Below, in pieces: positions 26,062 to 35,498 of a DNA stretch of 36,195 nt (positions are counted from its first letter, which is position 1; every line of letters begins with the position of its first letter). A model generated the notes under the pieces. It was not told the origin of the DNA and did no database searches. It was given only the letters and a program-made list of their open reading frames with translations. Both the position numbers and the translations under genes were made by a program. Source of the DNA: a virus. The stretch lies in the IMG/VR virus record IMGVR_UViG_3300021371_001011, positions 1-36,195 of that record. One strand, 5' to 3'.

Positions 26062-26445
26062 TCACCAAGCCCTACATGACCAGTAACGTGCCTTAGTCTT
26101 TGGCCCTGGGTTATCGCAATTGTGTCTAGCTCTAAAGCTCTTACGTGCTTTGGGATTGTTTTTGCGGATACGCATAGTAGGGCGTTTAGCACTAGTGCCG
26201 CCGTGTCCAAAGTTAACTTTTTTCACATTGCCTGTTTTAGGATCTTTAACATATACTTTAAACTTTTTAACATCGCCACGCATCGGCTTGTTTAATTTAA
26301 CTTTACGTCCTTGATATTCCGCTTCAAATAGATCGCTTTCGTCTATACTGTATGCTAGATATCCAAACTCTTCATGAAAGTCTTGTGTATCTTCTAGAGT
26401 AATTTCAGTCTGCTCGACTATTTGTGTAACTTCATTTATTTTCAT
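26062..26445 (-). CDS. Basic virion-associated protein with C-terminal R-H-N-C-D-N-P-G-P module
   Basis: A 127-residue protein. An acidic N-terminal half (residues 1-45, MKINEVTQIVEQTEITLEDT) precedes a very basic half: YQGRKVKLNKPMRGDVKKFK and a C-terminal SFRARHNCDNPGPKTKARYW followed by S-C-R-A-W. The last module is familiar from many marine phage proteins, with two Cys and an aromatic end. Strong Lys/Arg content fits DNA binding inside the head. It is preceded by an unusual hairpin that pairs with its own ribosome site and includes a late promoter. Confidence 0.7.
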   Translation of the reverse strand: MKINEVTQIVEQTEITLEDTQDFHEEFGYLAYSIDESDLFEAEYQGRKVKLNKPMRGDVKKFKVYVKDPKTGNVKKVNFGHGGTSAKRPTMRIRKNNPKARKSFRARHNCDNPGPKTKARYWSCRAW

Positions 26446-26450
26446 AAAAA

Positions 26451-26493
26451 CACCCTTGGTATAACTTTAATATAAAGTATTTATCCAAGGGTG
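26451..26493 (-). promoter_or_regulatory. Hairpin that pairs with the ribosome site of the next gene
   Basis: In the minus-strand transcript, CACCCUUGG (26493-26485) pairs perfectly with CCAAGGGUG (26459-26451), with an inner AU stem (ACTTTA/TAAAGT, 26464-26469 and 26473-26478). The 3' arm holds the likely ribosome site AAGG, followed by U5 and AUG at 26445. The late promoter is inside the hairpin, so its own transcript would lack the 5' arm. A stem followed by five T could also be a terminator. Confidence 0.65.
26478..26485 (-). promoter_or_regulatory. T4-type late promoter (GATAAATA) inside a hairpin
   Basis: Minus-strand GATAAATA, one mismatch from TATAAATA, with its first base in the 5' arm of the hairpin. 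Transcription would start about 6 bases downstream, in the loop, 25-30 bases before ATG at 26445. Confidence 0.65.
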
Positions 26494-26517: not shown

Positions 26518-26979
26518 TTATGCGTCTTCTGTGAAGTCGTCGTCATCCACGCCTGCTGTATCGTCGTCACCAGCTTCTTCAACTTGTGCCGCACCATCAG
26601 CAAGTGATGCTGTAAAGTTCCATGGCACTGACTTACCGTCATATGCGTTGGCGCCTGTTCCGCTAGGTGCTGCTAGTGTAGCTTTACGTCCAGCAATTTT
26701 ACTTACGCCGTATGTTTCGCCATCATCCATTTTGAATGAAATAGCCATTTCACCTGATGTTAGTGCTGTTGGCAATTTGCCCCATGCTAGTTTACAGATG
26801 TGAGTTGTATCGGCTGCACCGATTTCTGATACTACAAACTTCTTTGAAGCTTTTTGTTTTACAATAAAACCTTCTTTCACGCCGCCGCCTGAATTAAAGT
26901 TTACTTTGATTTCGCTACCTGCTGCTGTTGGTCCTGTGACAGCATCAGCAAAATAACGCTTGTTTAGTGGTCTTCCCAT
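26518..26979 (-). CDS. Small structural protein (decoration-like)
   Basis: A 153-residue protein starting MGRPLNKRYFADAVTGPTAA. ATG at 26979 follows AAGGAG; a Met 15 codons earlier is unlikely. The pattern GFIVKQKASKKFVVSEIG, then CKLAWGKLPTALTSGEMAIS and a Lys-containing GRKATLAAPSG is familiar from abundant marine phage structural proteins. The tail is extremely acidic (GDDDTAGVDDDDFTEDA). Beta-rich, no Trp until the C-terminal part. It may decorate the capsid; this is inferred. Confidence 0.7.
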   Translation of the reverse strand: MGRPLNKRYFADAVTGPTAAGSEIKVNFNSGGGVKEGFIVKQKASKKFVVSEIGAADTTHICKLAWGKLPTALTSGEMAISFKMDDGETYGVSKIAGRKATLAAPSGTGANAYDGKSVPWNFTASLADGAAQVEEAGDDDTAGVDDDDFTEDA

Positions 26980-27043
26980 TTGTTTTCTCCTTGACGTTCT
27001 AGGTCTACGAGGTTGGAGCCCCATAAGCTCTATTGAGCAGTAG

Positions 27044-27051
27044 TATTTATC
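27044..27051 (-). promoter_or_regulatory. T4-type late promoter (GATAAATA)
   Basis: Minus-strand GATAAATA two bases beyond the TAA stop of the lipoprotein gene and 65 bases before the structural gene start at 26979. The leader contains a short possible hairpin (GAGC/GCTC). Confidence 0.6.
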
Positions 27052-29404: not shown

Positions 29405-29433
29405 AGTATAGATGTTTAAAGATACTTTGTCAA
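29405..29433 (-). promoter_or_regulatory. Sigma70-like promoter for uvsE
   Basis: Minus strand: TTGACA (29433-29428), 17-base spacer, TATACT (29410-29405). The -35 is perfect and the -10 has one mismatch. It overlaps the last codons and stop of the radical SAM gene. Suggests early expression of uvsE and the gene after it. Confidence 0.75.
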
Positions 29434-30567
29434 GTTAAAAATTTTATCTGATTGTTTTTGTTTTGCCATAGTCTGTAAAAAGTCATTAAGTTCCCGATCA
29501 GTATATGTTTTGGTACCTAATACAATTTCTAACTGATTAATCCAAGTTTGACATTCAGTATACCACTTATCTGAATAGAAAAGATCTTGATTTAAATAAA
29601 CTAGCTCTCTTAATATTGGTATAACTTCAATACGTTTACTATGCCCTGGGTGTAGTATACCATCATTTACCCAGTTACCAGTTATACACACTTTTTTGTT
29701 ATGCTTTCTAATAATCTCAAACGACCAATGCAAATAATCTACTATTCCTGTCATAGTAAACAAACTGACAGTTGGACATAATCCAATAGTGCTAACACGA
29801 TTATACGATAGATATCGTTCCATATTTGTTTGATATCTGTCCCAGTCTAACCCCCACCGAACAAGTTCGCTTTGAGTTTCAATCGCCTCGTTGCTAAAAA
29901 CTATGTACAATTCCCATTTATCTGGTAATCTGTCATATAGTTCTATAAACTTATCTAGTTGCGAATTGGTTGTATTACCGTTGGTCATCAGTGCTAGATA
30001 TATTTTGCGTTGGTTAAACCGCTGATCACTAGCTAATAAACTTAAAAAATAATAAAAGTTTTTGCTATATGTTAGTTCACCGCCCAGAAAGCTCAATGTA
30101 TATTCATAATCTAATGTAGATAGCCAGTCTAAGAATGCTGCATAATTTTCTTCACTGGGTCGTTGTACATGATGTTCTAGATTTTTTTCCTGTGCTATTT
30201 TGTGACTACTGCCTTCATCACAGTATATACAACTCATATCACATAAGTTGTCTAGCATTATCTCAATAACTTCTATATTCTCTGATACATCTGACGGGCT
30301 GCGCCAAGTATTACGATGATCACGATAACTTGTACCAGTTTTTTCACGACTGTCCCAACAATATTCGCATTGACTATTTTCTATACCATTTAATAAGTCA
30401 TTACGTCTTTGCTGTATTGCTATACTATTGTTAAAGAAATCTGAAGTAAGTTTATCTGGAAATAATTCATAAGTAGATTTGCAACAATGGCGTAATTTTT
30501 TTGTTCCAAATGCTATATTAACATCAGTCCACGCTTTACTACATAAAGTTTGATTTGTTTTTTGCAT
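29416..30567 (-). CDS. Twitch-type radical SAM protein
   Basis: A 383-residue protein (from ATG at 30567; an in-frame Met at 30591 is the alternative and neither has a strong ribosome site). The cluster motif is DNLCDMSCIYCDEGSS (C109, C113, C116), followed by a typical SAM-barrel LGGELTYSK and LMTNGNT. Upstream of it are C9, C28, C29 and CEYCWDSREKTG, the N-terminal pattern of the twitch-domain radical SAM proteins found in phages. Such enzymes usually modify peptides or attach groups to sugars or nucleotides; the substrate is unknown. It overlaps the RyR-domain gene by 29 bases, suggesting a linked role. Confidence 0.85.
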   Translation of the reverse strand: MQKTNQTLCSKAWTDVNIAFGTKKLRHCCKSTYELFPDKLTSDFFNNSIAIQQRRNDLLNGIENSQCEYCWDSREKTGTSYRDHRNTWRSPSDVSENIEVIEIMLDNLCDMSCIYCDEGSSHKIAQEKNLEHHVQRPSEENYAAFLDWLSTLDYEYTLSFLGGELTYSKNFYYFLSLLASDQRFNQRKIYLALMTNGNTTNSQLDKFIELYDRLPDKWELYIVFSNEAIETQSELVRWGLDWDRYQTNMERYLSYNRVSTIGLCPTVSLFTMTGIVDYLHWSFEIIRKHNKKVCITGNWVNDGILHPGHSKRIEVIPILRELVYLNQDLFYSDKWYTECQTWINQLEIVLGTKTYTDRELNDFLQTMAKQKQSDKIFNLTKYL

Positions 30568-31096
30568 AATAATCAAGTAGAGCTTGGTCATTTGCTGCTA
30601 CTCTACCACGATATGATTCAGGTAAATCGTCCCATGGTCGCATTGCTGGATGAGTTTTGTTTAGAGCATCTAAATTTAGACCAAAGCGATATCCCTTTTC
30701 CATCATTTCTTGTATCCAACGATTATGGTGTTGTCTAGACATTGCATCGTAAAGTGTTTGTCTAGCATCTTCTTCAATTTGAATATCATATTCAAATGGA
30801 TGACTAAAATCTGCATTAGCACGATATACATTACTAGTTTCTATTTCAAAATCGTGTTCGGTAACTCTCATATATCCTTCAACGATGCGCTCTGCTTCAT
30901 CTTCAGTCAAGTGTCTAACTAGTGGTAATATGTATACATATTCAGTACCTTGTAGACCAAGCATTAAGGTATTGGTATCGTCGTCACCCATAATTATATT
31001 ATCTGGTCCCAACATTTCTATAGTATAATACCATTTTTTCGCTTGTTCGCTAGTTAACGGTTGATTTGTTCGTTGAAGGATATAAAAGTCTTGCAT
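30539..31096 (-). CDS. RyR-domain protein
   Basis: A 185-residue protein. The N-terminal half (1-105) is of unknown fold, starting MQDFYILQRTNQPLTSEQAK. The C-terminal part (about 110-178) matches the RyR domain (PF02026): RWIQEMMEKGYRFGLNLDAL, then NKTHPAMRPWDDLPES, with the typical W, G-x-x-x-G-x-x-x-D, T-H-P and L-P landmarks. RyR domains of phages and bacteria are of largely unknown role, and some bind nucleotides in their animal versions. It overlaps the radical SAM gene by 29 bases. Confidence 0.75.
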   Translation of the reverse strand: MQDFYILQRTNQPLTSEQAKKWYYTIEMLGPDNIIMGDDDTNTLMLGLQGTEYVYILPLVRHLTEDEAERIVEGYMRVTEHDFEIETSNVYRANADFSHPFEYDIQIEEDARQTLYDAMSRQHHNRWIQEMMEKGYRFGLNLDALNKTHPAMRPWDDLPESYRGRVAANDQALLDYYAKNKSNFM

Positions 31097-34110: not shown

Positions 34111-35046
34111 TTAAAATATCACATTTACTTTTGCTGTACTACTTGCGTCGGCTCCTGCCACACTAGCGTTAATATCTAGTGTAAACGTTTCTGTTTCACT
34201 ACCAACTGGTATAGTAGCTTGGAAACCAGCGTTTGGAAAACGTAGTTGCCATCCTAGTGATGCATCTTTACCCCAATAGCTGACGTTTTTAACCATTTTG
34301 GATACATTGTGTACAATTGTTACTTTGTTACCAACAATAGTACTTGTCCAACCAGATGGTAAATCACTAGCTGATTGTAAGTTACCGTTACCATCAAATG
34401 CTACTGTAAATTGAAAACTTGAAGCAGTTTCAGCAGTAGTACCTGCGGCAATTGTAATTTCATTTGCATCACTTGTTATTGAAACATTAGTTCCTGCTAC
34501 TATACTTTTAAATTGTAAGTCTGCACCCGCTTTGCTTGCAAAGACACCATTACCAGAACCCAAGTTACTGGCTGTATTAATTTCGGCTGTGTTTTTAAAT
34601 TCTATTTCATTAGTATCTGTACTAAGTGATACTACTAAGTTTATGCTATCATCATGTGCTTTAAGTGACCGAAGCTGTATATCGTTTCCTACTTTAGCGG
34701 AAAATATACCTGTTCCTGTTCCTATATTGGCGCCGGTTGCAGCGGCCGCCGCTACGTCTAATGTTAAATCATTTCCATTATCAGTAACAGTAATACCTGC
34801 TCCTGCAATTATAGATTTAAAATTTAATGTGCCGCCCGTTAAGTCATCAAATATACCTTCTCCAGTGCCAACGTTTGCAGCACCAGTTATAAGTGTTAAC
34901 CCAAGACTTGTAAGGCTTTGATTTTCAAACTTCCCTGTAGTAGAATTGTATTGTAGCACATCTTCGTTTGCCACAGTTGTTTGGTCTATATCTACTAGAG
35001 GAATCAATAATGATCGTAATGTTGAGCTCTGTGCATATACTGGCAT
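34111..35046 (-). CDS. Fibre-like protein with three internal repeats
   Basis: A 311-residue protein starting MPVYAQSSTLRSLLIPLVDI. Three repeats of about 55-60 residues share N-V/I/L-G-T/S-G-x-G-I/V-F...L-x-F/L-K/R-S-I/L (near residues 58, 100 and 162), each followed by a strand pair such as AGTNVSITSDANEITIAAG. The C-terminal domain (about 210-311) has two Trp and ends in a beta pattern. Typical of trimeric fibres. It is led by an exact late promoter and co-directional with the 590-residue protein. Confidence 0.75.
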   Translation of the reverse strand: MPVYAQSSTLRSLLIPLVDIDQTTVANEDVLQYNSTTGKFENQSLTSLGLTLITGAANVGTGEGIFDDLTGGTLNFKSIIAGAGITVTDNGNDLTLDVAAAAATGANIGTGTGIFSAKVGNDIQLRSLKAHDDSINLVVSLSTDTNEIEFKNTAEINTASNLGSGNGVFASKAGADLQFKSIVAGTNVSITSDANEITIAAGTTAETASSFQFTVAFDGNGNLQSASDLPSGWTSTIVGNKVTIVHNVSKMVKNVSYWGKDASLGWQLRFPNAGFQATIPVGSETETFTLDINASVAGADASSTAKVNVIF

Positions 35047-35081
35047 TGATTATTCCTAAACTGTTAAATGTTATTATATAC

Positions 35082-35089
35082 TATTTATA
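35082..35089 (-). promoter_or_regulatory. T4-type late promoter, exact TATAAATA
   Basis: Minus-strand TATAAATA whose first bases include the TAA stop of the gene ending at 35085. It lies 36 bases before ATG at 35046; the ribosome site TAGGA is in the leader. Confidence 0.75.
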
Positions 35090-35498
35090 GGTTTAGGAGT
35101 ATCTTGTCTACAGTACCATGCAATGCAATGTCATAATTTGCTGGTGTTGGTGATAAAGCACTGCGGTCTACTCTAGCTCTTATCCAAAGTAAGTTAGCAC
35201 GGAATGTCCATGCTTCTGTTGTAGTGTCTCCAAGGTTATTTGATCCACTCGGTACACTAGTAACTGGATATTGTCTGTAACTTTGACCACTTGTCAAGTA
35301 AATTGGAAACCAATCACTTTCACTTGGCTCTGTTGCCAGACTTCCTTCTAAATGTATACGTCCTTGAAAGTTAGTTATAGTTGCACTAACGGTATGAAGA
35401 CCATCAGTTTGCCCATAATAACCGTCTGCTTTTACTTTATCACCAGTATAGCTTAAAACTGCCTGGCTTGGTAATATATTAATGCTAGTTGCGCTCAT
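35085..35498 (-). CDS. Small virion structural protein
   Basis: A 137-residue beta-rich protein, MSATSINILPSQAVLSYTGD, with FQGRIHLEGSLATEPSESDW then FPIYL, a pattern I recall from cyanophage and pelagiphage structural regions. C-terminal strands include LWIRARVDRSALSP and a final DKILLNL. No Cys. Its ATG overlaps the stop of the 54-residue gene (ATGA), so the two are co-translated. Confidence 0.7.
   Translation of the reverse strand: MSATSINILPSQAVLSYTGDKVKADGYYGQTDGLHTVSATITNFQGRIHLEGSLATEPSESDWFPIYLTSGQSYRQYPVTSVPSGSNNLGDTTTEAWTFRANLLWIRARVDRSALSPTPANYDIALHGTVDKILLNL

Follow-up and report, generated by a model that had tools for sequence, protein, structure and literature searches.

The 127-aa gene at 26062-26445 on the minus strand is probably controlled by a hairpin which masks its ribosome site and is built around the gene's own late promoter. 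The gene lies in the window, i.e. the whole 36,195-nt stretch of viral DNA that was analysed. The pairing, the internal promoter motif, the position of the ribosome site and the covariation are each evident at the sequence level. On the minus strand the leader reads 5'-CACCCTTGGATAAATACTTTATATTAAAGTTATACCAAGGGTGTTTTTATG. According to sequence and fold its outer stem consists of a 5' arm CACCCTTGG (26493-26485), an anti-ribosome-site arm with compensatory changes in relatives, and a 3' arm CCAAGGGTG (26459-26451), which contains AAGG (26457-26454) 8 nt ahead of the ATG at 26445. The T4-type late promoter motif GATAAATA (26485-26478) is located in the loop, whereby its G doubles as the final base of the 5' arm. 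The loop also holds an inner stem ACTTTA-TAT-TAAAGT (26464-26478), predicted by folding and found as variants in relatives. TTTTT (26446-26450) leads from the stem to the ATG and is a possible terminator U-tract. All these elements are on the minus strand. The original prediction had described the fully pairing arms, the AAGG in the 3' arm and the promoter that begins within the 5' arm correctly and had overlooked the inner stem.

The outer arms are complementary at 9 of 9 positions with one extra G-U pair outside, and they form the longest-armed inverted repeat in the window (range 60 nt). The long leader RNA folds with -20.9 kcal/mol (z -5.3), and none of 200 shuffles is as good; RNA lacking everything before the loop has no better fold than shuffles. 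With bulges allowed, ~1% of random 60-mers of the window, a set that includes overlapping copies of the leader itself, pair equally well with the leader. This duplex pairing-energy null gave a weaker result than the perfect-stem tests. The evolutionary evidence, i.e. covariation of the arms and a promoter kept inside, is stronger than pairing energy alone. Our terminator scan permits loops of ≤8 only and hence misses the hairpin.

Read-through RNA would hold both arms and form a hairpin of ~20 kcal/mol with AAGG buried, leaving the 127-aa gene untranslated. RNA begun at the internal GATAAATA would be devoid of the 5' arm and its ribosome site would be open. The gene, first of its operon, would then be expressed from its private late promoter alone. 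Modelled folding agrees with the claim that RNA from the internal promoter frees the ribosome site: its pairing probability in the window is 1.00 in the long RNA vs 0.24 in the predicted late-start RNA. For the orthologous sites described below the modelled values are ~1 and 0.14-0.42, respectively. Translation of the gene is hence expected from its own late RNA and not from read-through RNA. From these models we infer translational silencing of read-through RNA in vivo.

Prediction of late promoters was reported as not possible in a study of pelagimyophages (PMC7029224); the present analysis supplies a late promoter motif for this uncultured marine phage group. We used 479 intergenic leaders from relatives and the window. 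Without prior input ATAAATAC is the top strand-biased 8-mer (39 sense vs 7 antisense). NATAAATA, also reported as late motif for cyanophage S-PM2 (PMC2984593), counts 86 sense vs 24 antisense and NCTAAATA 21 vs 7. Most late-promoter motifs on the minus strand of the window are located 19-61 nt ahead of an ORF start. Moreover, a homologue of the late sigma factor gp55 (phrog_234) is found in 4 of 9 related records (G002, G003, G005 and G008, E 3e-22 to 1e-24), among which G002 also carries the hairpin of L083/L084. The phrog_234 search did not find one in the fragment G001, and a search for the gp45 sliding clamp (phrog_223) gave no match in any record, controls included. Owing to the strand-biased leaders and the gp55 homologue, the motif of a T4-type late promoter has good support in this phage group. 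RNA starts about one helical turn downstream of T4 late promoters (PMC2988020), which puts the predicted start here at ~26472. Judged by its sequence, the candidate promoter GATAAATA would be active from this point.

Related viral contigs, gathered by the upstream gene (MGRPLNKR...) or by a match to the arm pattern, provide 11 further orthologous sites, 10 of them distinct from that of the window. These are L081/L247, where the hairpin is identical to the window's, L083/L084, L108/L119/L210, L241, L278, L208, L158/L178, L499, L439, L445 and L351. In L445 the script gave a different ORF as upstream neighbour, and orthology was taken from the leader and the downstream protein. The downstream proteins are of two types (81-127 aa and 186-268 aa), which share a C-terminal domain where complete. 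NATAAATA or CTAAATA is kept within the hairpin at these sites with the exception of L351, which exhibits a GTAAATA overlapping the arm. At all of them AAGG, GAGG or AGGA is found 7-8 nt from the ATG.

Compensating changes in both arms among relatives had been named as a check of the original prediction, and they are found. In L083 an outer A-U pair is changed to G-C and a G-C pair to A-U, in addition to one wobble. In L108 and L351 the arms are different ones that still pair 10/10, and most swapped arms fail to pair. The inner stem is present in relatives as AATACT/AGTATT or AATAGT/ACTATT. A C-G pair of it is turned into G-C in L499 and L439, and L445 shows a G-U. In the alignment A2, 98.6% of the cells are paired vs 37-52% when slid. 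Three pairs are changed on both sides there, and 1 of 500 shuffles attains the covariation score; as the aligned sequences are related, the shuffle tests are inflated and the figures are supportive rather than probabilities. Most orthologues share the outer arms, and the independent arm variants amount to only four. In L158 the hairpin is kept though the T-run is broken to TTATC.

The same layout occurs in front of other genes. Six related records plus the window (0.89 Mb), chosen regardless of the hairpin, were scanned for ribosome-site-bearing stems of ≥8 bp preceding ORF starts. TAAATA is found inside 6 of 22 such hairpins vs 2.2% per 30 nt as background. With gene starts as the unit, the odds ratio amounts to 12 (Fisher, p 2e-4), and the reverse-complement motif gives 0. 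Among the six, two are homologues of two others. The hits include the present site, the 311-aa gene of the window (35046) and its G001 homologue, a third G001 gene and one in G007. Applied to T4, an identical scan brings up gene 49 and I-TevII, in line with the claim that the layout is that of T4.

The second site of the window, derived from scan and fold, is TCCTAAAC-(TATAAATA, 35089-35082)-GTTTAGGA at 35054-35098 on the minus strand. Its ribosome site AGGA is located 7 nt ahead of the ATG at 35046. The arms are identical in L281/G001. By pairing energy this site is unexceptional, as ~10% of random windows are as good. A search for relatives of the 311-aa gene gave a single close locus, too few for a covariation test. 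The 5' arm overlaps the end of an upstream ORF, whose stop codon lies within the promoter; translational coupling is conceivable, with ribosomes that complete this ORF opening the stem. In the third G001 gene the hairpin scan finds the leader AATGTCCCTATC-gctaaatagtagca-GATAGGGGCATT; the third promoter-in-hairpin leader of G001 is located in L285 near 9057 (minus strand), with a 12-bp stem around GCTAAATA before MGTKQIISKNISADS. Contigs selected by pattern contribute more cases, among them L456, which shows TTCTCCTTGG-gtataaataactgaaacttatt-CCAAGGAGAA with no T-run. A DNA search with L456 among phage isolates gave no match.

The hairpin may also act in termination. A dual role, in which it terminates most of the incoming RNA and masks the escapees as a compact boundary of late units, overlaps with masking and does not exclude it; we give it a chance just short of even. 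It combines the masking evidence with the conserved U-tract, which is more conserved than masking alone requires: the spacer is T-rich (≥4 T of 5) in 10 of the 11 distinct ortholog leaders vs 3.9% of leaders in these genomes. T4 gene 49, a masking case (PMC3014915), likewise has GGGTTTATTATG after its stem. However, the U-tract, UUUUU in the window, is interrupted in half of the orthologues (TTCTT, TTATT, TTATC). Next to masking, the conserved U-tract at the 127-aa leader would probably add some transcription termination, at chances which we regard as about even.

That the hairpin is mainly an intrinsic terminator of the upstream 153-aa gene, with the late promoter in the loop to save space and the masking incidental, seems unlikely to us. 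Apart from the T-rich spacer, this explanation gains from what follows the 153-aa gene where it precedes other genes: a classical terminator and then NATAAATA in the L120 group and L137, or a terminator and then CTAAATA in the L112 group. The window itself has such a pair at ~31.95 kb, a tandem unit boundary (~31975-31936, minus strand) consisting of the classical terminator GCCTCGCTATCATGTAGCGGGGC with seven T and, immediately behind it, TATAAATA and a new gene. In these phages, however, classical terminators possess short loops and T-runs of up to 7. The spacer of L158 is only TTATC, and the start of the 127-aa gene is only five bases past the stem. Moreover, a terminator has no need of a fixed spacing from AAGG to ATG. 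The U-tract is also absent from the second window site (ATAATCA), the third G001 gene (TATATA), L456 (GAAGCACT) and T4 I-TevII (TGAAACG). Since the layout exists elsewhere without it, what all cases share is masking, to which termination would be added at the 127-aa leader. The terminator which the original prediction had offered as an alternative has an unusually conserved U-tract at this site in its favour, but it is not exclusive of masking and both may occur.

Far less probable is an inverted repeat acting as DNA, i.e. as symmetric operator or as aid in melting of the late promoter, with an incidental RNA fold. The inner repeat AATACT/AGTATT does overlap the promoter, and its symmetry is kept through double changes. 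But for most NATAAATA promoters, including five others in the window, the scans reported no such repeat, the 3' arm always bears the ribosome site, and a G-U pair is tolerated in L445 and L083 as in RNA. A chance fold of AT-rich intergenic DNA, to which the share of equally well pairing random windows would speak, has a negligible probability and was rejected as contradicted by covariation, besides the perfect stem with its z value, the conservation and the recurrence before other genes.

The masking hairpin is placed behind genes which carry late promoter motifs of their own. The transcript of the upstream 153-aa gene (MGRPLNKR..., 26518-26979, minus strand; a longer ORF, 26518-27024, is also possible) would enter the hairpin. 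A further GATAAATA at 27044-27051 (minus strand) is by its motif the candidate late promoter of this gene. From 27044 to the hairpin the terminator scan (loops ≤8) saw no classical terminator, and the 153-aa gene has no relative in the phage isolate collection. Late promoter motifs of the upstream genes are located at 27051, 31943, 32333, 35089 and 35567 and point the same way. Hence much of the RNA entering the hairpin is probably late as well. The best reading of this arrangement is a hairpin that would isolate the late operon from other late units rather than simply divide early from late; a block of early transcripts is possible. The masking layout proposed by analogy to T4 is supported, and the separation of early from late RNA is corrected, as the upstream genes also have late promoters. 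A more general version, by which one DNA element combining terminator, ribosome-site mask and late promoter is reused by uncultured marine T4-like phages at several late-unit boundaries for insulation and not for timing, so that late operons would obey their private promoters alone, is put forward tentatively, as we hold it to be somewhat more doubtful than not. If insulation between late units is true, the known purpose of the trick extends past timing.

T4 gene 49, whose upstream RNA is early, resembles the present case in that its late promoter AATAAATA adjoins or overlaps the 5' arm, that its stem ACCCTTATCT/AGGTAAGGGT masks AAGG and that a T-rich spacer precedes the ATG. It differs by a loop of 5 nt with the promoter overlapping the 5' arm, compared to the long structured loop here, and it is unrelated to the 127-aa gene. 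T4 I-TevII has TATAAATA in the loop region and GAGG in the 3' arm, but encodes an intron homing endonuclease and is devoid of a U-tract. Masking structures are reported for I-TevII and also for I-TevI and I-TevIII (PMC3014915). In T4 gene e the long early RNA hides the ribosome site, while the late RNA lacks the 5' strand (PMC3014915). This lysozyme case, compared here from its published description, differs in that it concerns a lysis gene and was shown experimentally. The tandem terminators with late promoter (L120, L112 and the window at 31.95 kb) likewise part two late units via a private NATAAATA or CTAAATA, but their hairpin is upstream of the promoter and the ribosome site outside.

PMC3014915 reviews the same working principle for T4 e, soc, 49 and the intron endonucleases, and the layout was studied so far in this handful of T4 genes. 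Within the limits of the literature covered, no open report describes it in marine T4-like phages. Our sequence comparisons point to its use in uncultured marine T4 relatives with evolutionary conservation: in front of probable head proteins, several times in one genome and with covariation support.

The controlled protein (MKINEVTQ..., phrog_7595, unknown function) is basic as originally predicted (pI 9.8). The N-termini of the next operon proteins are similar (MKFNQINED, MKISQIISE, MKIDQLTEN, MKLSELLN) and presumably resemble the prohead-targeting signals of T4-like phages. The operon probably encodes head-internal proteins; the head-internal location which had been proposed is consistent with these N-termini by way of inference. 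On the minus strand NATAAATA does not recur before 20865, and the hairpin promoter may thus serve ~5.6 kb. Homologues of the 127-aa protein (L001-L080) are mostly uninformative, as it is only the C-terminal domain that occurs widely, behind a different leader. In the cultured relatives C48C1, HTVC008M, Aegir, immuto and Melnitz this domain has other neighbouring genes, and the gene that carries it is preceded by hardly any intergenic space or none.

A radical SAM protein (PF04055) is encoded amid structural genes at 29416-30591 of the window (minus strand). The second gene of the operon (26060-24978, minus strand) contains a sigma-70 region 4 domain (PF04545, E 4e-15), preceded by the prohead-signal-like N-terminus MKFNQINED. 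Its homologues in L208, L278, L241 and L445 have the C-terminal part in common with it, and their N-terminus is similar. As their matches stop short of the core of the sigma domain, the latter looks like an inserted cargo module, and the protein is possibly a packaged sigma-like factor.
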